Part shown: positions 53,411-63,923 of the stretch, piece by piece
How positions within the stretch are numbered: the first letter of the stretch is position 1
Layout of the letters: the number at the start of each line of letters is the position of its first letter
Assembly (NCBI RefSeq): GCF_000331305.1
Contig: NZ_KB217478.1
Coordinates: 4,738,296-4,802,295 of the forward strand
Origin: Calothrix sp. PCC 7103
Lineage (GTDB): Bacteria; Cyanobacteriota; Cyanobacteriia; Cyanobacteriales; Nostocaceae
Direction of reading: 5' to 3'
Length of the DNA stretch: 64,000 bases
The notes under the pieces: generated by a model
Told to the model about the DNA's origin: nothing
Databases searched by the model: none
What the model saw: the letters and a program-made list of their open reading frames with translations, nothing else
Position numbers and translations under genes: made by a program

Positions 53411-54802
53411 TTAACCTTTGAATAAAGAAATAGAACTTTTGTTCTTAAAACTAGTATTATCCAAAGGTAATTGAACTGTAAAAGTGGTACCCTTACACAA
53501 TTCACTCTCTACATTTAGCTTTCCTTTATGTACACTAACTATAGCCTGAACAATAGGTAAACCTAAACCTGAACCACCAGTGCTGCGAGAACGGTCACTC
53601 GAAACACGGTAAAAGCGGTCAAAAATGTGAGGAAGTTCCTGAAGTGGAATACCAATACCTGTATCCTGAACTTTAATTACAGCGTAGTAGTCACTTCTAT
53701 TTAAGAAAATTTTTACATCTCCTCCTGTCGGCGTGTATTGAATTGCATTTACAATTAAATTAGAAAACAAACGATAAAGCTGGTTGGCATTGCCAATAAT
53801 ATTTAAGGGTTGATGCGTGTCCTCTACAGATGTTAATGTTATTTCTGCGGCAGTTGCCATTGCTTGAAATTCTTCTATTAAATCACTAATTATGTCGTTT
53901 AAACAGCATTTTTCCTGTTGTTTAAGTTCTTTAATAGACTGTTTCTCTAAACGTGCTAGCATAAGTAAATCAACAACTAAAGTTGTTAGTCGCTGATTTT
54001 GTCGGTGGATAGTTTGCAAAATATCGCGCGTTTCTTCTTCATTTAATTGTGGAGATAATAACGCGGACTCTACAGTGGCGCCTGTTGCAGCTAAAGGAGT
54101 GCGTAATTCGTGTGCTGCATCGGCGGTAAATTGTTGAATTTGTCTATAGGATTGATAAATAGGCTGCATTGCTAATCCAGATAACCACCAGCTAGCAGCA
54201 GTAATTATACCCATCGCTATTGGCAAACCTAATACTAAAACTAATTTTACACTATCAAGATAATGATTAAATTCTTCTAAACTTCGCCCAATTTGCAAGT
54301 AACCCCAATCACCATTATATCGAGTGTGTAAATGCATTGTTAATTGATGAAATTCATTGCCTTGTCTATCTTTAACAAATTGCCAAGTTTTTTTATTAAA
54401 ATTAGTGGATATCAGTTCTGGGTAGTTGCCTGCTGTCGCAATTAAACGTCCAGAAATATCGAAAAAACGAATATAGTAATTACTTTTGTCAAAAGCACCA
54501 ACAACATGACGTTTAGTGTCTGGTTGCTGTTGAATACAGTTGGCGCCTATGCACATACTCAAATTTGGAAATAACTGCTGTACAACAGGTTCCAAACGTC
54601 CAGGTGTTGGCAACTTTGGTTCAATAGTATCATGTATAGTTCCAGCGATTGACTCGATTTCATTGTCTAAAGCTACTACATGAGCATGAAACACTGAAGA
54701 GTAAAAACCGAAGGCACATAAGCTTAAAATTAAACCCATTACAACGGCATAATATAAAGCTAGACGAATGCGAGTAAGTCGGAACAATCTATTTTGATTC
54801 AT
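53411..54802 (-). CDS. Sensor histidine kinase, RppB/NrsS-like
   Basis: The 463-residue kinase has TM1 (about residues 12-32), a periplasmic sensor with two Cys close together (M-C-I-G-A-N-C) that could bind metal, TM2 near 190-210, HisKA H-box A-A-H-E-L-R-T-P-L-A, and HATPase N (L-I-V-N-A-I-Q-Y), G1 (D-T-G-I-G-I) and G2 (G-G-S-G-L-G-L-P-I) motifs, all intact. The ATG at 54802 is preferred to the TTG at 54811. It lies 5 bases after its response regulator. The pair resembles Synechocystis RppA/RppB and NrsR/NrsS, which respond to redox or nickel. The copper genes nearby suggest copper or another soft metal here. Confidence 0.88.
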   Translation of the reverse strand: MNQNRLFRLTRIRLALYYAVVMGLILSLCAFGFYSSVFHAHVVALDNEIESIAGTIHDTIEPKLPTPGRLEPVVQQLFPNLSMCIGANCIQQQPDTKRHVVGAFDKSNYYIRFFDISGRLIATAGNYPELISTNFNKKTWQFVKDRQGNEFHQLTMHLHTRYNGDWGYLQIGRSLEEFNHYLDSVKLVLVLGLPIAMGIITAASWWLSGLAMQPIYQSYRQIQQFTADAAHELRTPLAATGATVESALLSPQLNEEETRDILQTIHRQNQRLTTLVVDLLMLARLEKQSIKELKQQEKCCLNDIISDLIEEFQAMATAAEITLTSVEDTHQPLNIIGNANQLYRLFSNLIVNAIQYTPTGGDVKIFLNRSDYYAVIKVQDTGIGIPLQELPHIFDRFYRVSSDRSRSTGGSGLGLPIVQAIVSVHKGKLNVESELCKGTTFTVQLPLDNTSFKNKSSISLFKG

Positions 54803-54807
54803 TGCGC

Positions 54808-55494
54808 TCAATTAAGTCGATATCCCATACCGTGTAAAGTTTCAATAGGGTTATCACAGCCACTATTTAATAGTTTACGACGCAATAAACGTATTTGTGC
54901 TGCAACCACATTACTTCCTGCCTCTGCACTAACTTCCCATACTGCCGAGCGAATTTGTTCTGTAGTAACAATTTGCTTTTGATGTTTCATCAAATATTCT
55001 AAAATTTGAAATTCTTTATTAGTTAAAGGTATTACCTGTTGATTCCCTGTTGCATCACTACTAGCAACTGAATTATTCGCATAATCTAAAGTTAAGTTGC
55101 CGACAGTAAGCTTTGGGGGTTGAAATAGGGGAGAGCGACGTTGCAATGCTCGTAATCTTGCTAGTAATTCTCCCATCCCAAACGGTTTTACTAGGTAATC
55201 ATCGGCGCCTGCATCCAAACCAGCAATTTTATCTTCCATCCTATCCTTAGCTGTTAGCATCAAGATAGGTAGAGAATTTCCTTTTAAACGTAGTCTTTTA
55301 CACAATTCTAAACCAGTAATACCTGGAAGCATCCAATCGAGAATAGCTACAGTATACTCTGCCGAGCTATTTTCTAAATATGCCCATGCATCTGTACCAT
55401 TCATTACCCAATCAACCAAGTACTTATGTTGGTTGAGAGTGCGCTTGATAGCAGCTCCTAAATCTGGCTCATCTTCGACTAGCAACACCCGCAT
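54808..55494 (-). CDS. OmpR-family response regulator, RppA-like
   Basis: The 228-residue protein has a receiver domain with phosphoacceptor Asp in I-L-D-W-M-L-P-G, acidic pair V-E-D-E and Lys in V-K-P-F, and a winged-helix DNA-binding domain (about 128-225; L-T-N-K-E-F-Q-I-L-E-Y-L-M, I-R-L-L-R-R-K-L). It probably binds the ATGAAAT direct repeats at 55537, 60201 and 63618; the first lies 43 bases upstream of its own start, suggesting autoregulation. The kinase gene follows directly. Confidence 0.92.
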   Translation of the reverse strand: MRVLLVEDEPDLGAAIKRTLNQHKYLVDWVMNGTDAWAYLENSSAEYTVAILDWMLPGITGLELCKRLRLKGNSLPILMLTAKDRMEDKIAGLDAGADDYLVKPFGMGELLARLRALQRRSPLFQPPKLTVGNLTLDYANNSVASSDATGNQQVIPLTNKEFQILEYLMKHQKQIVTTEQIRSAVWEVSAEAGSNVVAAQIRLLRRKLLNSGCDNPIETLHGMGYRLN

Positions 55495-55536
55495 ATCAAA
55501 AAAATATAATTACATTTAGTAGTTTGGCTCTTAACA

Positions 55537-55554
55537 ATGAAATCAAGATGAAAT
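55537..55554. promoter_or_regulatory. Response-regulator direct repeat, site A
   Basis: ATGAAAT-CAAG-ATGAAAT: two identical heptamers with an 11-base period, typical of OmpR-family operators. It lies between rppA-like (-) and copZ (+). Copies B (60201) and C (63618) differ only at one spacer base. Confidence 0.75.
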
Positions 55555-55567
55555 TTTTATTTACCCC

Positions 55568-55599
55568 TTGACTCTCCAGTAGACGGGAGAATTCACAAT
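55568..55599 (+). promoter_or_regulatory. MerR-type promoter of copZ-copA
   Basis: A TTGACT -35 box is separated by 20 bases from a CACAAT -10-like box, with an imperfect dyad (CTCTCC...GGGAGAA) centred in the spacer. The over-long spacer with internal dyad is diagnostic of MerR-family-activated promoters. A MerR gene lies at 58580 in the same island. Confidence 0.75.
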
Positions 55600-55627
55600 A
55601 ACATTAGTTATTTAAAGGGTGATTTAT

Positions 55628-55822
55628 ATGACACTTCAACTAAAAGTTCCGAACATGGCTTGTTCTGCTTGTGGCGCCACTATTACAGAGGCGATAAAAG
55701 CGATTGACCCGACTGCAACAGTTCAAGCTGACCCGAAAACAAAGTTAGTTAATGTTGAGACTCAGGCGCCTGAAGTGGCAGTTAAAGAGGCTGTTATTGC
55801 TGCTGGTTATTCGGTTGGGTAA
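55628..55822 (+). CDS. copZ: Copper chaperone (HMA domain)
   Basis: This 64-residue protein is a single heavy-metal-associated domain with the metal loop M-A-C-S-A-C near residues 10-15 and ends A-G-Y-S-V. The ATG at 55628 is preferred to an upstream start. Such chaperones carry Cu(I) to CopA. A dispersed repeat at 55837 separates it from copA, 77 bases downstream, but both are probably read from the MerR-type promoter. Confidence 0.92.
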   Translation: MTLQLKVPNMACSACGATITEAIKAIDPTATVQADPKTKLVNVETQAPEVAVKEAVIAAGYSVG

Positions 55823-55836
55823 TACCTGTTATTTAA

Positions 55837-55864
55837 GGGCGGGCAAGGATGCCCACCCCACAAG
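55837..55864. repeat. GGGCAAGGATGCCC repeat between copZ and copA
   Basis: A palindromic intergenic repeat of the type at 19938 and 25879. Translation through it creates a false N-terminal extension of CopA. Confidence 0.7.
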
Positions 55865-55899
55865 ATTTTTATCCTACAAGATTTTTAGTGGAGGAAGAT

Positions 55900-58164
55900 A
55901 TGGAGAATGCTGCTTTAAAGCTGCATGGTATGAGTTGTGCTTCTTGCGCGCGAAGTGTTGAGGAAGCAATTAGTTCTGTAATTGGTGTGTCGGAGTGTAT
56001 TGTGAATTATGGCGCCGAACTGGCAACAGTAAAATATGACCCTCAACAAACGAATGTAACGGCTATTCAAAAAGCTGTGGATGAGGCTGGTTATTCTGCT
56101 GTACCATTGCAACAGCAAAGCCCGATAGCACAACAGGATGAAAGCGAAAAGCGCAGACTGTCAAGAGAAACTAATGAATTAAGCCGTAAGGTAGTTGTTG
56201 CAATTATTCTCAGTGGAATAATTGTTATTGGTTCTATACCAATGATGACTGGGTTGCATGTACCTTTTATCCCTATGTGGTTACATAACCCTTGGTTGCA
56301 ACTAGTGCTAACAATTCCTATTCAATTTTGGTGTGGTTTATCTTTCTATCGCAATGCATGGAAAGCTTTTAAACGCCATGCGGCAACTATGGATACTCTT
56401 GTTGCATTGGGAACTAGTACAGCATTTATTTATTCGCTATTTCCTACCTTTTTTCCTAGCTTTTTTATCTCTCAGGGTCTTAGACCAGATGTATATTATG
56501 AAGCTTCCTCTGTTATCATTGCTTTGATATTATTGGGAAGACTCTTAGAAAGTCGTGCGAAAAAAGAAACAAGCGTTGCTATCCGTAAATTAATTGGTTT
56601 ACAAGCCAAAACCGCGCGTTTAATTCGCAATGGACAAGAAATTGATATTCCTATTGAAGAAGTGCAAATTGGGGATGTAATCTTAGTTCGTCCTGGTGAG
56701 AAAATTCCTGTCGATGGTGAAGTAGTTGATGGCACATCGACTATTGATGAATCTATGGTGACTGGTGAAAGTGTACCTATCAAAAAACAGCTTGGTCATG
56801 AAGTGATTGGCGCCACAATTAACAAAACTGGCAGCTTTAAATTTAAAGCTACGCGAGTAGGAAAAGATACCGTTCTCGCCCAAATAGTTCAGCTAGTTCA
56901 ACAAGCTCAAGGTAGTAAGGCGCCTATCCAAAGACTAGCAGACTCTGTAACAGGGTTTTTTGTACCAGTAGTAATTGCAATCGCAATCCTAACTTTCATT
57001 ATTTGGTTTAATATCATGGGTAATCTTACCCTTGCTTTGATTACCACAGTAGGAGTATTAATTATTGCTTGTCCTTGTGCGCTAGGTCTAGCAACTCCAA
57101 CATCAGTAATGGTAGGAACTGGTAAAGGCGCCGAAAATGGTATTTTAATAAAAGGCGCCGAAAGTTTAGAACTAGCGCACAAAATAAAAACAATAGTTCT
57201 AGATAAAACAGGAACTATCACCCAAGGCAAACCTACAGTTACAGATTTTATTACCACTAATGGAACCGCAAACGGTAATGAAATTAAATTACTACAATTA
57301 GCAGCATCACTCGAACGCAACTCAGAACACCCACTAGCAGAAGCAGTTGTGAGATATGCTCAAACCCAAAATGTAGAAACGCGACATGTCACGTCTAAAT
57401 TTGAAGCAATTGCAGGTAGTGGTGTACAAGGTGTAGTTGATGACCACCTAATACAGATTGGTACGCAACGTTGGATGTCTGAGTTAAATGTGAAAACTCA
57501 AGTTCTGTCCAAGGAAAAAGAACGTTTGGAGTATCTTGGTAAAACCGCCATTTATATCGTGATAGATGGTAAACTTCAAGGGCTGATGAGTATTTCTGAT
57601 GCAGTTAAACCCACATCTGCCCAAGCTGTAAAAGCATTGCAAAAATTGGGTTTAGAAGTAGTAATGCTTACAGGAGACAATCGCCGTACCGCAGAAACGA
57701 TTGCTCACGAAGTTGGGATAAAGCGCGTTTTAGCAGAAGTTCGCCCCGACCAAAAAGCTGAGACTGTGAGAAAATTACAAAGCGAAGGAAAAATTGTCGC
57801 AATGGTGGGTGATGGTATAAATGATGCCCCAGCATTAGCTCAAGCAGATGTAGGTATAGCCATTGGCACAGGAACAGATGTAGCAATTGCTGCTAGTGAC
57901 ATCACACTTATCTCTGGAGATTTACAAGGTGTAGTGACGGCAATTCAACTTAGCCATGCAACAATTCGTAACATACGTCAAAATTTATTCTTCGCCTTCA
58001 TTTATAACGTAGCAGGAATTCCAATTGCTGCTGGTATTCTTTTTCCATTCTTTGGCTGGTTGCTCAATCCAATTATTGCAGGCGCCGCGATGGCATTCAG
58101 TTCAGTATCAGTATTAACAAACGCATTGCGTCTACGTAACTTCCGACCCAAAGTAATTGCATAA
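55900..58164 (+). CDS. copA: Copper-translocating P-type ATPase
   Basis: This P1B-type ATPase exports Cu(I) from the cytosol. The ATG at 55900 with a GGAGG site gives 754 residues; the open frame upstream comes from repeat DNA. There is one HMA domain (M-S-C-A-S-C near residue 10), eight expected membrane helices, the ion-binding C-P-C in A-C-P-C-A-L-G-L, the phosphorylation site D-K-T-G-T, the nucleotide-domain H-P motif (S-E-H-P-L-A) and hinge G-D-G-I-N-D. The final helices carry Y-N and [10 protein letters not shown], typical of copper-specific members. It is cotranscribed with copZ and the small gene at 58178. Confidence 0.95.
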
Positions 58165-58177
58165 AAAGGGGATATAT

Positions 58178-58438
58178 ATGTCGATTAAAAACGTAATTAT
58201 TGGCATTGCTTCTTTAGGATTATTGTTAGGTGGCGCCAGCAACGAAACAGTAGCACAAATGCACCATCCAACCCATACATCTGAAACACAAACAAGCTTT
58301 CAACGTCTTGAACAACCGCTATGGATAAAAGGAGTAGTTACAGCTTCTGGTTTAGGATTAATTGGTTTAGAAATATGGTGGTTTCTATTGAGTAAGCCTA
58401 AATTTAGAAAAGCACAAGCTCATGACGGCATTCAATAA
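58178..58438 (+). CDS. Small membrane protein with His/Met-rich segment
   Basis: From the ATG at 58178, 13 bases after copA with an AAAAAGGGG site, the protein has 86 residues. It has an N-terminal hydrophobic signal/anchor (residues 4-20), a polar segment M-H-H-P-T-H-T-S able to bind metal, and a second membrane helix (about 48-68). It is probably part of the copA operon. Its family is not recognised; a copper-handling role is inferred only from position and the His-rich motif. Confidence 0.7.
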   Translation: MSIKNVIIGIASLGLLLGGASNETVAQMHHPTHTSETQTSFQRLEQPLWIKGVVTASGLGLIGLEIWWFLLSKPKFRKAQAHDGIQ

Positions 58439-58444
58439 ATTACA

Positions 58445-58550
58445 ATCGTAGGTTGGGGAGGCACCGCGTTGCCGGGGTTCCCCCGGTTGTAGCGCGTGCC
58501 GTTGGAGGCTTTGCGCTCACGTAGTGTTCCGAAGGAAAACCCAACATTAC
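58445..58550. repeat. Dispersed intergenic repeat
   Basis: The sequence GTTGCCGGGGTTCCCCCGG and the following GCGTGCC...CGTAGTGTTCCGAAGG segment are GC-rich relative to the window and of a type common between cyanobacterial genes. It separates the copA operon from merR. Confidence 0.6.
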
Positions 58551-58579
58551 TATATTAAGATACTATAAAGGTGCGTACT

Positions 58580-58993
58580 ATGCTAATCCAAGAAAAGACA
58601 ATACAAATAGGCGCCGTTGCCAAAGAAAGTGGTGTACCAATAAAAACCATCCGTTACTACGAAGAGTTAGGATTGCTCAAAGCATCGGCTAGAACTGAAG
58701 GTGGGTTTAGATTGTTCAACTCTGATGTTCTATCTCGTTTGCATTTCATCAAACGCGCCCAAAGCCTTGGTTTAAGCTTATCAGAAATTAAAGATTTTTT
58801 ATCAGTTCATGACCAAGGTGATTTACCTTGCGACCATATAAAAGCTAAACTGCAAGATAAAGTGGCAGCAGTTAATAAGCAAATTCAAGAGCTTATGCTG
58901 TTTAAGCAGGAGCTAGAAAGTCTTCTTTCAGGATGGGAAGCGGTGACAGAAAGTCCGGAACAAACAATTTGTCCAATTATTGAAAGAGATTAA
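58580..58993 (+). CDS. MerR-family metal-responsive regulator
   Basis: The 137-residue protein (ATG 58580; a GTG at 58571 is possible) has the MerR winged helix: I-G-A-V-A-K-E-S-G-V-P-I-K-T-I-R-Y-Y-E-E-L-G-L-L, then R-L-F-N and a long dimerisation helix. Only two Cys are present, Cys84 (L-P-C-D-H) and Cys131 (T-I-C-P-I-I). These positions are near the outer Cys ligands of MerR and ZntR, and the CueR C-x7-C pair is absent. The metal is therefore uncertain. It probably acts at the MerR-type promoter at 55568. A methyltransferase gene starts 4 bases after its stop. Confidence 0.9.
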   Translation: MLIQEKTIQIGAVAKESGVPIKTIRYYEELGLLKASARTEGGFRLFNSDVLSRLHFIKRAQSLGLSLSEIKDFLSVHDQGDLPCDHIKAKLQDKVAAVNKQIQELMLFKQELESLLSGWEAVTESPEQTICPIIERD

Positions 58994-58997
58994 TTTT

Positions 58998-59591
58998 ATG
59001 ATAAATGGATTAAGGGCACAACCAGGAAAACCAACGGGGATAGTTGGTAGAATAGTCGGTTATATAATGGATATTTATAACCAAGAGGATAATCATTGGA
59101 CTGTTTCATTGTTAGATATTAGCGAGACGAGCAAAGTGCTTGAAATTGGTTTTGGAACAGGTTTAGCGATTGCTGATGCTGCAAATAAGATGAAATATGG
59201 ATGTATTTATGGCATTGAACTTTCTGAAACTATGCAGAAAGTAGCTCAAAAACGAAACCGAAACGCCATTAAGTCTGGTCGTGTTAAACTTCAAATGGGT
59301 GATGTGATGTCATTACCATTCGAGGACAATTACTTTGACATTGTTTACTCAATTAATTGTATATATTTCTGGGAACCGCCAACTCAAGGTTTGACTGAAA
59401 TACATCGCGTATTAAAGCCAGAAGGAACTGTCGCAATTACTGCCCGTAATAAAAACGATGAAGTTTATCTCCGTTGGAAACCAAACACGGTTAGAGATTT
59501 ACTCCTATCTTCCGGATTTATAAATGTAAAAATTCTCGAAGGCTTGAATCCCAAGCATCCGATTTATTGTGCGATTGGAAACAAGCCTTAA
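58998..59591 (+). CDS. Class I SAM-dependent methyltransferase
   Basis: The 197-residue protein (ATG 58998) has the SAM loop V-L-E-I-G-F-G-T-G-L, an acidic E at G-I-E-L-S, and M-G-D-V-M-S-L-P-F motif II. It resembles UbiE/ArsM-like small-molecule methylases. It lacks the Cys triplet expected of arsenite methyltransferase. Its position directly behind merR indicates cotranscription; substrate unknown. Confidence 0.86.
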   Translation: MINGLRAQPGKPTGIVGRIVGYIMDIYNQEDNHWTVSLLDISETSKVLEIGFGTGLAIADAANKMKYGCIYGIELSETMQKVAQKRNRNAIKSGRVKLQMGDVMSLPFEDNYFDIVYSINCIYFWEPPTQGLTEIHRVLKPEGTVAITARNKNDEVYLRWKPNTVRDLLLSSGFINVKILEGLNPKHPIYCAIGNKP

Positions 59592-59597
59592 GAGTCA

Positions 59598-60086
59598 TTA
59601 CTGATTAAAATTAAATCGACCGTTTACTTTATCACCACTAATATCCGCATTAATTCTTACTTGATATTGACCAGCGGCGCCTTTATCTAATTTCGCAGCA
59701 TAATGTTTACCTTGAGCATCATAGGTTAGTGGAACAGTATGAAGTTTCCCATCCAGCGCCTGAATATCTGCCGTAACTTTTGCGTTGGAAACAGTTTCGT
59801 GTTTATCGCCTGTTAGCAGGTATAAATCTAAATGAGTGGCGCCGTCTTCTTTTTCAGGTACTAACTCTAAATGGTACTTCCCAGTCTCAACGACTTGACC
59901 GCCTTTGCGACTCTGAGAATGGTCAGTATTCTTGTTGCTATTTGCTACAGTTTCTGTTTTACCTGTAGTTTCTGTCGTACTACTATTTGTATTGCTGCTA
60001 TCTGAAGCTTGGTTGCTACAGGCGCCTAAAATAAACAATCCTGCACTAGCTAAAACTACAAAGACTACTAATTTAAATGATTTCAT
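59598..60086 (-). CDS. Lipoprotein of the metal island
   Basis: The ATG at 60086 follows a GAGGAG site. The 162-residue protein has a lipobox L-G-A-C (Cys near residue 23), a Ser/Thr/Asn-rich linker with few charged residues, then a beta-rich domain (H-L-E-L-V-P-E, H-L-D-L-Y-L-L-T-G-D-K-H) with several His. It could bind metal in the periplasm or modulate the efflux pump. Direct-repeat site B lies about 115 bases upstream. It is convergent with the methyltransferase gene. Confidence 0.82.
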   Translation of the reverse strand: MKSFKLVVFVVLASAGLFILGACSNQASDSSNTNSSTTETTGKTETVANSNKNTDHSQSRKGGQVVETGKYHLELVPEKEDGATHLDLYLLTGDKHETVSNAKVTADIQALDGKLHTVPLTYDAQGKHYAAKLDKGAAGQYQVRINADISGDKVNGRFNFNQ

Positions 60087-60200
60087 TGATTTACTCCTCA
60101 TTAATATTATTAAGCATTATTATTTAAACCTACCTAGGATAGTCGGTTGGTATATGCTCATGTTCGCGGATAGGTGCTATATATAATGTCTCAGACCAAG

Positions 60201-60218
60201 ATGAAATTAAGATGAAAT
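60201..60218. promoter_or_regulatory. Response-regulator direct repeat, site B
   Basis: ATGAAAT-TAAG-ATGAAAT, the same as site C and differing from site A at one spacer base. It lies upstream of the lipoprotein gene. Confidence 0.75.
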
Positions 60219-60270
60219 TTGTGTCCAAACCTCAGATGCCGCAAGGCCTGTTAACGGGTAAAATATAAAC

Positions 60271-60365
60271 TTTGTCATGCTGAACGAAACGTAGTGCAGT
60301 GAAGCATCTTAGAGATTCTAGCCTGCGGCAAATGCTCCGCATTACGCTACGCTCAGAATGACAAA
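60271..60365. repeat. TTTGTCATGCTGA...TCAGAATGACAAA inverted repeat element
   Basis: The two ends are inverted copies over 13 bases with one mismatch. The ends match the interior repeat of the MITE at 40351. It is a non-coding dispersed element. Confidence 0.7.
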
Positions 60366-60409
60366 TTGTACTTTGGCAAAATTGGGATGCTCCCCAAAAT
60401 TTATTACAA

Positions 60410-63400
60410 CTACATATGCATCAAAAACTGCTCCTCTTTAACTTCGTTTATTTTCTTTGGAAACAAATACTTACCAAACTTTGCATACAAAGCAGGTAAA
60501 ACAACTAAAGTTATGGCTGTCGAAGTAAACAAACCGCCAAAGACAACTATAGAAAGTGGTTGTAAAAGTTCTTGTCCAGGGCCACCTTGTAGTACCATCG
60601 GCGCCAAACCCAAAGCGGAAGTTAAAGCTGTCATTAAAATCGCATTTAATCTTTCCATCGACCCTTTAACTATAATATCTTTCAACGGCATTCCTTCAGC
60701 ATATTTACTATTGTAATTATCTACTAGTAATAAACCGTTGCGAGTTGCTACCCCAAACAGAGAAACAAATCCCACTAAAGACGCTACATAAATAACTCCT
60801 CCAGTTAAAGCTACTGCAATTACACCTCCTACTAAAGCAATTGGTAAGTTAATCATAATCATGACAGCAGAAGGGATAGATTTAACTGACATGTACATCA
60901 GTATAGTGATAGCAACAAACGCGATGATACTGAAAATAACAATATTTTGTGTAGCACGTTCTTCTGCTTCAAATTGCCCTGCGTATTGAATAAAATACCC
61001 TGCTGGGATTTGAACATTGCGTTTTACTTTAGCTTCGATATCATTGACTATTGAGCGTAAGTCTCGACCTTTGGCGTTTGCTGAAACTACAATTAAACGC
61101 TCAACTTTTTCACGATTAATTGTATTCGGTCCAGTACCGTCTTGAATTATTGCAACATTTTCTAAAGGAATTTTTTGCCCATTCGGAGTGTCAATCAATA
61201 AATTACGAATCATTTCTAAATTTTGCCGCGCGTCTGGTTTCAACCATACTACGAGGTCAAAGGATTGTTGGTTTTCTAAAATTTGAGAGACGACTTGACC
61301 GTTGAGTGCAGTTTCAATAATGCTAGAAATATCTCCAACTGAAAATCCATAGCGACTTGCTGCGTCTCTATCAAATTTGATTTGAATTTGCGGTACTGGA
61401 ATTTGAGGTTCAAGCAATAAATCAACAACTCCATCAACAGTTTTCATTTGTGCTTCTACTTGTTCCCCAATTTTCCGAAGTTCTGCTAAGTCGGCGCCGA
61501 AAATTTTTACCGCTATAGCACTACGAACTCCAGATAATACTTCATCCATCCGGTGAGAAATAAATCCGCCTATATTAGGCGCCGCACCTGGTATTTTATT
61601 AAACTCTTGACGCAGTTTTTCTAAAGTTTTCGAGCGATTTTTCATCCCTTCTTGGCTTAGTTCAATATCAACATGTGCCAAATTAACACCTGCTGCATCT
61701 GCATCTCCTGCCGCGCGTCCCGAACGTGTTTGAATAAACTTAAATCTACGGTCATTTTTTAACGCTTCTTCAACTACATAACCAGCTTTTGTAGTTGCTT
61801 CTAAAGACACACCAGGATATAAACTCAAAGTATTTACCATTGTTTGCTCTTGAAACTCTGGCAAAAATGCTCTACCAAAAGAAGGAATTATTGCAATGGA
61901 AGCCACAGTTAAAGCTAATGCAATACCAATAATTAATAATGAATTCCTAAAAGAAAAATTTAGACAGTTACTATAAATGCTCTTACATAATCTTGCTAAC
62001 CAAGGTTCTCGCTTTGTTACCTTGATGTTGGGTAATAAAATTGCACATAATGCTGGAGAAACTAGAAGTGATTCTAAACTAGAAATTACTACCACCACTA
62101 AGTAAGAAATACCCATCGGTGTAAAAATTCGTCCTTCCACACCTGGTAAGGTAAAAATTGGTGAGAAAACAATAATCCCAATAATCGTGGCGCCAATTAA
62201 AGATTCTCGTACTTCTTCAGAACCTTCAAAAATGATTTCTAACGGTGGTAAAGGATTAGAAGCAGTTTTATTTTCTCGTAATCGTCTATAAGTATTTTCA
62301 CCATAAACAATTGCATCATCTATTGCTGTACCAATTGCTACTGCTAAACCACCTAAAGTCATAGTATTAAGCCCAATACCTAACCATGAAAGCGCTAATA
62401 GTCCAAACAGTAATGTTAAGAAAAAATCTAGTAAACATACTGTTAGAGTACGCCAATTCATGAGAAAAGGAATTAGAATTACTCCCGCAATAATGCTGCC
62501 TTGAATCAAAGATGAGCGGACATTTTTAACCGAGGAATCAATATAACTATCTTGACGAAATGTAGTAGTTATTTTGATATATGAGGGTAAACCAGCTTTA
62601 ATTTCTTGCATTGCCGCTTCTACCGCACGCGATACAGTCGGAGTATCAGCAAGTGGCTGTTTATTAACCATTAAAATAATAGCTGCTTTGCCGTTAAAAC
62701 TACCATCACCGCGTTTAATGGCGCCTCCAATTTGCACATCAGCAACATCTTGCAGTCTAACAGGTACACCATTACGTGAAGTAATAGTAGATTTTTTCAG
62801 GTCTTCAATTGATTCAATCCTTCCAATTAAGCGAATTAACTTTTCAGTATCTGGCGTAATTAAATAACCACCAGGCGCATTAACATTAGCTGCTTTTGTA
62901 GCGTTAGTAACTTGCTCTAAAGAAACATTAAAAGCTGCTAACTTCGCTGGGTCAACTAATACCTGATATTGCCGAGTATCTCCACCAAAAACTAATACTT
63001 GACTTACACCTGGAACTGCTAACAGACGATTTGTAACTTGCCAATCAACAATTCGCCTAATTTCCATTAAAGAAGTGCTGAGTTCTGAGTTAGTCGTGCT
63101 AAGTGTGGTAAAAGCGTATTGGACAACCAAACCAACTGGTGAAGTAGTGGGAGAAATTTGCGGTGTTTCAACTCCCGGTGGCAATTTACTTGTAGCTTGT
63201 TGTAATCTTTCGGTAACTAGCTGACGTGCTTGATAAATTTCTGTACCCCAATTAAATACTACCCTGACCGCAGAAATTCCCGGCGCCGAGGATGAACGAA
63301 CAGCCGTTACTCCTGGTGTACCATTAATTGCGCTCTCAATTGGTAAAGTTACTAAAGACTCTACTTCTTCCGGCGCCAGTCCAGGTGCTTCAGTTTGAAT

Positions 63401-63544
63401 CTCAACTTGTGGTGGTGCAAACGGTGGTAACACATCCAACGGCATCTGAGGAATCACATAAAATGTCCACAGTGAAACTATAACTGTAGCTAAAACGACC
63501 AACCAGCGTCTGTCAATCACCCACCTTACAATGTTACTGAGCAT
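60410..63544 (-). CDS. HME/CzcA-CusA-type RND efflux pump subunit
   Basis: The 1044-residue protein (ATG 63544; the frame extends to 63586) begins with a TM helix and P-L-D-V-L-P-P, followed by porter-domain motifs (A-P-G-x-x-P-E-E-V-E, Q-x-P-L-A-D-T) and the TM4 relay A-I-G-T-A-I-D-D-A-I-V-Y-G-E-N with two adjacent Asp. A second half repeats the architecture, with twelve helices in total. It exports metal ions using proton motive force across both membranes, normally with a membrane-fusion and outer-membrane partner; neither is in the window. Direct-repeat site C lies 74-91 bases upstream. The substrate is inferred to be copper, silver or another divalent metal. Confidence 0.9.
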   Translation of the reverse strand: MLSNIVRWVIDRRWLVVLATVIVSLWTFYVIPQMPLDVLPPFAPPQVEIQTEAPGLAPEEVESLVTLPIESAINGTPGVTAVRSSSAPGISAVRVVFNWGTEIYQARQLVTERLQQATSKLPPGVETPQISPTTSPVGLVVQYAFTTLSTTNSELSTSLMEIRRIVDWQVTNRLLAVPGVSQVLVFGGDTRQYQVLVDPAKLAAFNVSLEQVTNATKAANVNAPGGYLITPDTEKLIRLIGRIESIEDLKKSTITSRNGVPVRLQDVADVQIGGAIKRGDGSFNGKAAIILMVNKQPLADTPTVSRAVEAAMQEIKAGLPSYIKITTTFRQDSYIDSSVKNVRSSLIQGSIIAGVILIPFLMNWRTLTVCLLDFFLTLLFGLLALSWLGIGLNTMTLGGLAVAIGTAIDDAIVYGENTYRRLRENKTASNPLPPLEIIFEGSEEVRESLIGATIIGIIVFSPIFTLPGVEGRIFTPMGISYLVVVVISSLESLLVSPALCAILLPNIKVTKREPWLARLCKSIYSNCLNFSFRNSLLIIGIALALTVASIAIIPSFGRAFLPEFQEQTMVNTLSLYPGVSLEATTKAGYVVEEALKNDRRFKFIQTRSGRAAGDADAAGVNLAHVDIELSQEGMKNRSKTLEKLRQEFNKIPGAAPNIGGFISHRMDEVLSGVRSAIAVKIFGADLAELRKIGEQVEAQMKTVDGVVDLLLEPQIPVPQIQIKFDRDAASRYGFSVGDISSIIETALNGQVVSQILENQQSFDLVVWLKPDARQNLEMIRNLLIDTPNGQKIPLENVAIIQDGTGPNTINREKVERLIVVSANAKGRDLRSIVNDIEAKVKRNVQIPAGYFIQYAGQFEAEERATQNIVIFSIIAFVAITILMYMSVKSIPSAVMIMINLPIALVGGVIAVALTGGVIYVASLVGFVSLFGVATRNGLLLVDNYNSKYAEGMPLKDIIVKGSMERLNAILMTALTSALGLAPMVLQGGPGQELLQPLSIVVFGGLFTSTAITLVVLPALYAKFGKYLFPKKINEVKEEQFLMHM

Positions 63545-63617
63545 TTTAGATTTTTGTAATTTGCACTCGCGACCAGAAAATAACAAGTGGCGCCTATCTA
63601 TAGTTTTTCAGGTGGTA

Positions 63618-63635
63618 ATGAAATTAAGATGAAAT
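63618..63635. promoter_or_regulatory. Response-regulator direct repeat, site C
   Basis: ATGAAAT-TAAG-ATGAAAT between the RND gene (-) and the small gene at 63654 (+). The distance to the pump gene resembles that of the other sites. Confidence 0.75.
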
Positions 63636-63653: not shown

Positions 63654-63923
63654 ATGAACAAACCAAGAGTTTTTGCTGATTTCCACAACGCCGATGCTCA
63701 AGGTCGCTTACGTCTAAATTGTACTGGAACAATTGAGGATTTGGCTCGACAAAAAATTTGGTTGCAAGAAGCTCAAGAATTAACACTATATAGTGAAGAT
63801 TTACAAGTTGATGGAATTGTTAGGTACTCTACCGAAGAAAATGTTTGGGTCGCTGTAATTAATTGGGACGAGATTCGAGAGCAAGAAAATTACCTAATTC
63901 AAGAAAGCAAGCTGAATCGATAA
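63654..63923 (+). CDS. Conserved hypothetical small protein
   Basis: The 89-residue soluble protein starts M-N-K-P-R-V-F-A-D-F-H-N-A-D and is followed by a short beta-rich sequence (G-R-L-R-L-N-C-T-G-T, V-D-G-I-V-R-Y). It has one Cys and no membrane segment. A GAGAGGG site precedes the ATG. It is divergent from the pump gene and shares its regulatory region. Function unknown. The window ends 77 bases later without further features. Confidence 0.7.
   Translation: MNKPRVFADFHNADAQGRLRLNCTGTIEDLARQKIWLQEAQELTLYSEDLQVDGIVRYSTEENVWVAVINWDEIREQENYLIQESKLNR

Follow-up and report, generated by a model that had tools for sequence, protein, structure and literature searches.

Exact repeats in a metal island of Calothrix sp. 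PCC 7103 are probably CopR-type boxes in one-way promoters

Gene content and repeats of the locus

We analysed a 64,000 nt stretch of the genome of Calothrix sp. PCC 7103 (C7:4738296-4802295, in the following the window), in which three exact repeats accompany the genes of a metal island. An earlier note, made from the sequence alone, had listed these repeats and proposed that they define a metal regulon. The genes of main concern are the following.

53411-54796, minus strand: sensor histidine kinase of CopS/RppB type (Pfam and NCBIfam; 50% identity to Synechocystis CopS)
54808-55494, minus strand: response regulator of CopR/RppA type, OmpR family (Pfam Response_reg and Trans_reg_C; NCBIfam RppA equivalog; 59% identity to Synechocystis pSYSX CopR)
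59598-60086, minus strand: lipoprotein, homologue of CopC, the product of the third gene of copBAC (42% identity over 139 amino acids to the product of the gene that follows copA on pSYSX)
60410-63544, minus strand: heavy-metal RND pump CopA of the CusA/CzcA family (TIGR00914 above cut-off; 60% identity to Synechocystis CopA)

Cop names follow the published papers; the pSYSX record labels the corresponding genes DUF305, rppA, rppB and CusA/CzcA. Regulator and kinase genes are adjacent (54808 and 54796). The regulator is 99% identical to that of Calothrix sp. FI2-JRJ7, and the host is a Calothrix-like cyanobacterium. Both members of the pair score above the cut-offs of the NCBIfam models RppA and RppB. 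However, this label cannot separate CopR from NrsR, because CopR of pSYSX is itself annotated as rppA. TIGR01387 (subfamily CusR/CopR/SilR) was rejected as the home of the regulator, which reaches 178 bits against a cut-off of 279.2. The recognition helix SNVVAAQ[IV]RLLRRKL is common, bar one I/V exchange, to the window regulator, to two further regulators of the same genome (C12:540679 and C12:470192, C12 being a 1.56-Mb replicon) and to Synechocystis CopR. The seven regulators that follow in similarity within the genome have a different helix. The lipoprotein has no Pfam match at E ≤ 0.001 and no NCBIfam match at E ≤ 1e-10, and comparing its sequence with solved structures gave nothing useful; the longer frame 59598-60101 was used for the comparison with CopC.

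The repeat itself is the 18-mer ATGAAATYAAGATGAAAT. It is found without mismatch at 55537-55554, 60201-60218 and 63618-63635 and in one orientation only (window search), exactly as the earlier note had it. The statement that the motif is not seen elsewhere in the window likewise held: with up to three mismatches a single further match appears (59179, three mismatches), located within a coding frame. In 100 dinucleotide shuffles of the window this threshold gave 0.39 matches on average and two at most.

In the genome as a whole (11.58 Mb, 12 contigs) there are eight exact copies, namely three in the window, one just past its right end (C7:4804854) and four on C12 (487053, 508175, 514776 and 532603). 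At 0-1 mismatch all 27 genome matches fall within C7:4793832-4804871 or C12:470016-540584; at 0-2 mismatches 38 of 43 lie within C7:4793832-4805978 and C12:470016-540584.

Box and -10-like element

Read leftwards, the repeat is ATTTCAT-N4-ATTTCAT with a period of 11, in support of the earlier suggestion of a tandem site for an OmpR-type regulator. The C7 stretch has six boxes with at most one mismatch in the 14 fixed bases and the C12 stretch 35; a few of the 41 overlap. When these 41 boxes were aligned, conservation was found to extend past one end of the box, into a -10-like element at a constant distance (T25 in 35 boxes, G26 in 32, A29 in 38, T33 in 39). This element has the form of an extended -10, TGN-nAnnnT, and OmpR/PhoB-type activators usually lie over the -35. 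Here a -35 seventeen bases upstream of the -10-like element would fall inside the box. Judged by consensus, the downstream element may thus act as the -10 of a predicted promoter.

A composite pattern, ATTTCATN4ATTTCATN7TGNNANNNT, was built from the sites of this genome and then applied to other genomes. The three boxes of the window and their downstream elements read as follows.

55521-55529, minus strand: predicted -10-like element of box 1 (AG instead of TG; CAAACT), at the fixed spacing of the 41-box alignment
55537-55554, minus strand: putative CopR box 1, ATTTCATCTTGATTTCAT read leftwards; exact; composite with one mismatch at 55521; faces copR
60185-60193, minus strand: predicted extended -10-like element of box 2, TGAGACATT, at the spacing of the 41-box alignment
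60201-60218, minus strand: putative CopR box 2, ATTTCATCTTAATTTCAT; exact; composite without mismatch at 60185; faces the lipoprotein gene
63602-63610, minus strand: predicted extended -10-like element of box 3, TGAAAAACT, at the spacing of the 41-box alignment
63618-63635, minus strand: putative CopR box 3, ATTTCATCTTAATTTCAT; exact; composite without mismatch at 63602; faces the RND pump gene

With at most one mismatch the composite occurs 34 times in the genome, compared to 0 for the reversed pattern, the highest count among 291 genomes sampled (the next has 22). Four places are at C7:4793816-4804871, three of them in the window, 29 are at C12:470016-540600 and one is at C7:4840924, ~36 kb from the first group. 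The earlier note had proposed a whole-genome motif search, with many unrelated matches as the outcome that would speak against a regulon; 33 of the 34 composites lie in the two metal islands. A chance origin of the repeats is ruled out by the shuffles and the reversed-pattern controls. At three mismatches both the 18-mer (112 matches genome-wide versus 89 for its reversed form, i.e. not outstanding) and the composite (82 versus 54) return mostly noise. Hence the argument rests on the matches with 0-1 mismatch only.

Direction of the boxes

Since the -10-like element stands at fixed spacing on one side only, the box points one way. The boxes of the window are all directed leftwards, box 1 towards copR, box 2 towards the lipoprotein gene and box 3 towards the RND pump gene. 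The earlier note had placed all three upstream of metal-island genes, boxes 1 and 3 with genes on both sides. This is true of their position, but as to targeting each box, by its -10-like element, faces the left-hand gene only.

For a broader view we used 43 of 45 CopR loci of named hosts; two (L083 and L084) were dropped, being 29 and 47% identical and not cyanobacterial. Open reading frames (ORFs) of at least 80 codons with gene starts within 300 bp were counted. The 43 loci contain 201 boxes. A gene start was present on the faced side only at 142, on both sides at 14, on the wrong side only at three and on neither side at 42, and the exact motif TGNNANNNT followed on the faced side of 134 boxes and on the opposite side of none (0/201). 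On C12 the same counts for 35 boxes are 28, 2, 0 and 5, with the exact -10 motif at 24 and on the unfaced side at 0/35. For the six boxes of C7 they are 1, 2, 1 and 2, with the exact motif at three and on the unfaced side at 0/6. In a second sample, covering copZ, copC and RND genes (the window, L034, L040-L082, L086 and L087, close kin included; matches without the protein start or less than 200 bp from a locus end were skipped), a box faces the RND gene in seven of the ten RND loci examined.

The isolated composite at C7:4840924-4840957 (L038:924; one mismatch) points away from a Cys-rich protein resembling the DUF326 protein of C12. The latter is likewise located on the unfaced side of a box.

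Conservation and relation to known systems

The 291 genomes sampled, the window genome included, belong to one order. The composite with at most one mismatch occurs at 676 places in 201 of them, versus eight for the reversed pattern, and a CopR-like regulator at E ≤ 1e-72 is present in 184. Sites and regulator occur together: composites are found in 172 of the 184 genomes with such a regulator and in 29 of the 107 without, the rank correlation between regulator and site counts per genome is 0.72, and the median number of sites is 0, 2, 3 and 11.5 for 0, 1, 2 and 3 regulators (all of these values not corrected for kinship). In 32 of the 43 CopR loci a composite with at most two mismatches is located within 300 bp upstream of the regulator and always faces it. 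Over all 43 loci this threshold yields 193 composites versus 0 for the reversed pattern.

The likeness to CopR sites of Synechocystis, suggested in the earlier note, is supported by 14.7 kb of pSYSX. Composites precede copM (no mismatch) and copB (one mismatch). They are the only ones at up to three mismatches, and the reversed pattern gives none. According to PMC4182526, expression of copM and copB requires CopRS. The Synechocystis sp. PCC 6803 system CopRS-copMRS/copBAC resembles the window in CopR, CopS, CopA and CopC (59, 50, 60 and 42% identity). In contrast, PMC4182526 assigns to CopR only copMRS and copBAC, plasmid genes not being fully covered, compared to 34 composites here. Moreover, unlike in Synechocystis, copRS and copC of the window genome have boxes of their own and the copZ-ATPase genes carry a MerR-type operator. 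E. coli CusRS-cusCFBA is similar as a two-component system for a periplasmic pump (PMC4335983). It differs in that the window regulator is far below TIGR01387 (see above) and that the MerR-family protein of the window stays below the CueR model (97.8 versus 147.4 bits). The locus thus combines what marks a cyanobacterial CopRS system: a CopR-clade regulator with the same helix, an adjoining CopS-type kinase, an RND pump with CopC and a box of the copM/copB type.

Proposed mechanism and points against it

Taken together, the repeats are very probably CopR-type boxes in one-way promoters that would drive copRS, the RND pump and the CopC lipoprotein, and not the copZ-ATPase genes or the 89-residue gene described below. 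Two ATTTCAT half-sites 11 bp apart, i.e. one helical turn, would bind a phosphorylated regulator of the CopR/RppA clade as a head-to-tail dimer. This dimer would lie over the -35 position, with the extended -10 TGNNANNNT seven bases further on. Bound in this way the regulator would replace the missing -35 and recruit RNA polymerase in one direction only. The copRS genes would be autoregulated, and copA and copC driven under metal stress sensed outside the cytoplasm by CopS. Copper is the likely stress because of the gene company and the Synechocystis precedent. The divergent copZ-ATPase genes would be under a separate MerR-type metal switch.

Several observations weigh against this interpretation. 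As regards direction, no gene start lies within 300 bp of 42 of the 201 boxes elsewhere and of five of the 35 on C12, and a gene start on the wrong side only occurs at three of the 201 and at one of the six on C7. The C12 direction counts are weaker because most C12 genes run one way. In the window genes flank boxes 1 and 3 on both sides, so that direction there rests on the -10-like element and on the other genomes. Box 1 is without the TG of an extended -10, and all that the box at C7:4840924 faces within 500 bp is a frame of 38 codons. As regards the regulator, 29 genomes have a site but no regulator at E ≤ 1e-72, 12 have a regulator but no site, the genome counts carry no kinship correction, and 11 of the 43 regulators are without a composite within 300 bp. 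The tree clade uniting the five CopR-like regulators of this genome with Synechocystis CopR has a support of 94/94, which is below the starred level. Among 12 copC genes examined a box within 300 bp is present only at that of the window and absent from the other 11. Finally, the spacing in the DNA is N6 between TTCAT cores (N5 between TTTCAT, N4 between ATTTCAT), whereas PMC4182526 writes the CopR site as TTCATN4-5TTCAT. The same paper reports the motif also close to nrs and mntC, neither of which showed a response by way of CopR; hence the motif alone names neither the metal nor the regulator.

Regulator paralogues and the metal signal

Five CopR-clade regulators are found in the genome at E ≤ 1e-72. 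The boxes may be shared by these paralogues, giving one stimulon with several sensors, possibly sorted by the N4 core. We regard this as plausible but rather doubt it. The recognition helix is common to three of the five and altered in two orphans, and the core is CTTG or CTTA in the window and mixed on C12, with CCTA and CCTG commonest (13/35). However, CTTG and CTTA occur on C12 too (6/35), and the full copies of the regulator may sense the same metal. The two orphan paralogues (C12:472517-473257 and 507440-508186) have no adjoining kinase gene and carry KSC in place of KPF besides the altered helix. Each has a box in front and another box overlapping the gene end, before the next gene.

It is improbable that the regulator is instead of the NrsR/RppA kind, answering nickel, cobalt, zinc or redox and not copper. 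The window pair shares the NCBIfam equivalogs RppA/RppB with NrsRS-nrsBACD, the nickel system of Synechocystis, and a related motif is reported between nrsRS and nrsBACD (PMC4182526). Moreover, the C12 island has a His-rich P-type ATPase, a CDF (Cation_efflux) protein and genes without a clear copper role. In contrast to nrsBACD, the gene content of the window is copBAC-like, with matches to CopRS-copBAC throughout (response regulator, kinase, RND pump and CopC), this being the only characterised system compared by sequence, and copZ and a copper-type ATPase adjoin.

The divergent copZ-ATPase genes and the 89-residue gene

The right-hand neighbours of boxes 1 and 3, together with the features relevant to their control, are listed below.

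55568-55599, plus strand: MerR-type operator/promoter of copZ (TTGACT, spacer dyad, -10), by pattern match; outside the CopR system
55628-55822, plus strand: copZ, HMA metallochaperone (Pfam); judged not to be a box 1 target
55849-58164, plus strand: copper-type P-type ATPase behind copZ (TIGR01511 above cut-off); judged not to be a box 1 target
58580-58993, plus strand: MerR-family regulator that may bind the copZ operator (Pfam MerR; below the CueR, ZntR and MerR cut-offs)
63654-63923, plus strand: 89-residue protein (box 3 is 19 bp before the ATG and faces away); judged not to be a box 3 target

In E. coli a MerR-family regulator serves the ATPase (CueR-copA). The operator in front of copZ has a dyad between -35 and -10, a geometry which we take to be that of CueR/MerR operators. 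The pattern with at most three mismatches occurs once in the window and eight times in the genome, in all cases in the two metal islands, and the reversed pattern not at all. Of 16 copZ loci in the second sample 15 have this operator and none has a CopR box facing copZ. A box within 300 bp that faces away is present in 11 of them, all with the operator, and no box in five, four with the operator. The operator together with the lack of a CopR box facing copZ suggests that copZ and the ATPase gene are most likely on another switch, perhaps controlled by the MerR-family protein at 58580-58993. The earlier claim that box 1 controls copZ is not borne out, the -10-like element of this box being leftward only. 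Control of copZ by the box was rejected on the facing-box count and on the exact -10 motif never found on an unfaced side.

The earlier note had also linked the 89-residue protein to the pathway. With 19 bp to box 3 the gene leaves little room for a rightward promoter. Nine of 19 homologue matches in other genomes were fetched, and no box with 0-1 mismatch was found in their flanks of mostly 1.5 kb (shorter for L103); one homologue has a two-mismatch match ~650 bp past the far end of the gene. Control by the box was rejected on the unfaced side and the nine homologues, and this gene is best explained as a mere neighbour. In Dulcicalothrix (L041) it is kept beside the box.

These data bear on a bidirectional action of the boxes, in which the bound regulator would also activate or repress copZ and the 89-residue gene. 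The 11 of 16 copZ loci with a nearby box, the distance to the 89-residue gene preserved in Dulcicalothrix and the related nrs promoter region, called bidirectional in PMC8675649, point in this direction. We nonetheless consider it quite unlikely, as the exact -10 motif is absent from the unfaced side in all three sets of boxes, the copZ operator is present with and without a box nearby, and the fetched homologues of the 89-residue protein have no box of 0-1 mismatch.

The operator pattern also outlines a second, MerR-type regulon. It stands before copZ (two copies), a merR gene, DUF305 genes (two copies), a flavodoxin gene and a 112-codon frame, at places in C12:460001-560000 (L031-L035) and C7:4793863-4805671; a further operator at C12:513125 (three mismatches) has no obvious target. 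The DUF305 genes and one flavodoxin gene carry both CopR and MerR-type switches, some copies being imperfect. In three MerR-family proteins (58580-58993, C12:521523-521957 and C12:518004-518396) one Cys belongs to an LPC/PPC segment and another to a C-terminal ICPII motif, which possibly indicates an unusual metal site.

The box between pump and lipoprotein genes

The link of the lipoprotein to the pathway, also part of the earlier note, is supported by its CopC homology and by box 2. The gap between pump and copC (60087-60409) is 323 bp long, versus 54 bp and 83 bp in the sister genomes L040 and L041. It holds the composite and, on visual inspection, an imperfect inverted repeat (GTCATTCTGAGC...GTTCAGCATGAC), which a repeat-finding program did not report. 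Box 2 looks like a local novelty. In the simplest reading, an insertion split the pump-copC operon and a copied promoter module may have restored control. A copC paralogue on C12 (504080, outside the 12-gene sample) has a box at 504033. The CopB-like adaptor, named by reading its sequence, is encoded just past the window and has a composite at C7:4804838; its C12 counterparts match HlyD_D23.

It is next to impossible that the boxes are just a short dispersed repeat with no part in regulation: many copies occur in one genome and box 2 lies in a ~250 bp extra stretch absent from two sister genomes, but the copies concentrate in the metal islands, mostly just before genes and at a fixed -10 spacing, with regulator co-occurrence across an order, and as the whole story this was rejected, only box 2 among the window boxes being in an extra stretch.

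Predicted wider regulon

On C12 the genes and operons following boxes comprise, by family matches, two HlyD-type adaptors, RND pumps, a CopC-like lipoprotein, a DUF305 (CopM-like) protein, the His-rich P-type ATPase, a second P-type cation ATPase, an OprB porin, a CemA-family protein, DUF218 and a flavodoxin. There are furthermore a SulP transporter (perfect box; composite with two mismatches), VKOR followed by a peroxiredoxin, a pyridoxal-phosphate-dependent enzyme of cysteine-synthase type and several DUF2808 proteins. Sequence likeness adds two copRS pairs and the two orphan regulators. A gene for a sigma factor of the RpoD/SigA family (C12:485964-486959) lies directly behind a perfect composite. 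The P-type ATPase at C12:537423-540354 appears as two ORFs (130 and 831 amino acids) and resembles at its start the 955 amino acid copy at 493161; judged by eye it is likely a broken copy.

In the 43 CopR loci 151 composites with at most one mismatch were considered, 18 of which have no ORF in range; 87 proteins, and 57 after thinning for likeness, remained. These 57 distinct box-following proteins include 26 of DUF2808, nine regulators, four DUF305 proteins, four adaptors and three RND pumps. As a control 57 ORFs were drawn at random from 577 ORFs of the same loci, not thinned. Here DUF2808 is outside the 25 commonest families, the last of which have one member, i.e. it occurs at most once. 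In the window genome seven of nine DUF2808 genes are in the C12 island. The other two, at C7:281473 and C7:8117842, are closer to the Pfam model and have no composite listed there. A diverged, island-specific DUF2808 sub-family stands behind CopR boxes in L032-L034 (e.g. L032:12210-12704).

An island DUF2808 protein was modelled as a beta-sandwich (mean pLDDT 78.3, pTM 0.66). In a PDB fold search the copper protein YcnI came third (E 7.2e-4, TM 0.46/0.57). As many unrelated beta-sandwich proteins score similarly, no function is claimed. The DUF2808 sequence compared with solved structures gave nothing useful.

Discussion

The earlier reading had the family of the sites right, its targets partly wrong and their extent far too small. 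In titles and abstract openings of the open-licence literature, searched for cyanobacterial CopR sites, CopRS of Nostoc/Anabaena, MerR-copZ and DUF2808, no description of an expanded CopR regulon was found. Tentatively, and with some doubt on our part, a portable one-way promoter module of CopR box and extended -10 may have been copied across the 70-kb island. In this way a copper switch of two operons would perhaps have become a broad metal/redox stimulon of the envelope. It would have several sensors and a sigma factor of its own, and would include a porin, a SulP-type transporter, peroxiredoxin, cysteine synthase and a secreted DUF2808 sub-family as new copper-stress proteins. The MerR-type regulon would be interleaved with it, both meeting at the DUF305 (CopM-like) genes.

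The box with its fixed -10 is a stringent directional signature for likely CopR promoters across a cyanobacterial order. Where two genes diverge it indicates the likely target, and it hints at a role for unknown families, foremost DUF2808. The arrangement at the locus points to a layout of two switches, CopRS for the envelope and a MerR protein for the cytosol. Moreover, a small two-component regulon may scale up by copying one promoter module, with more copies where there are more regulator paralogues.

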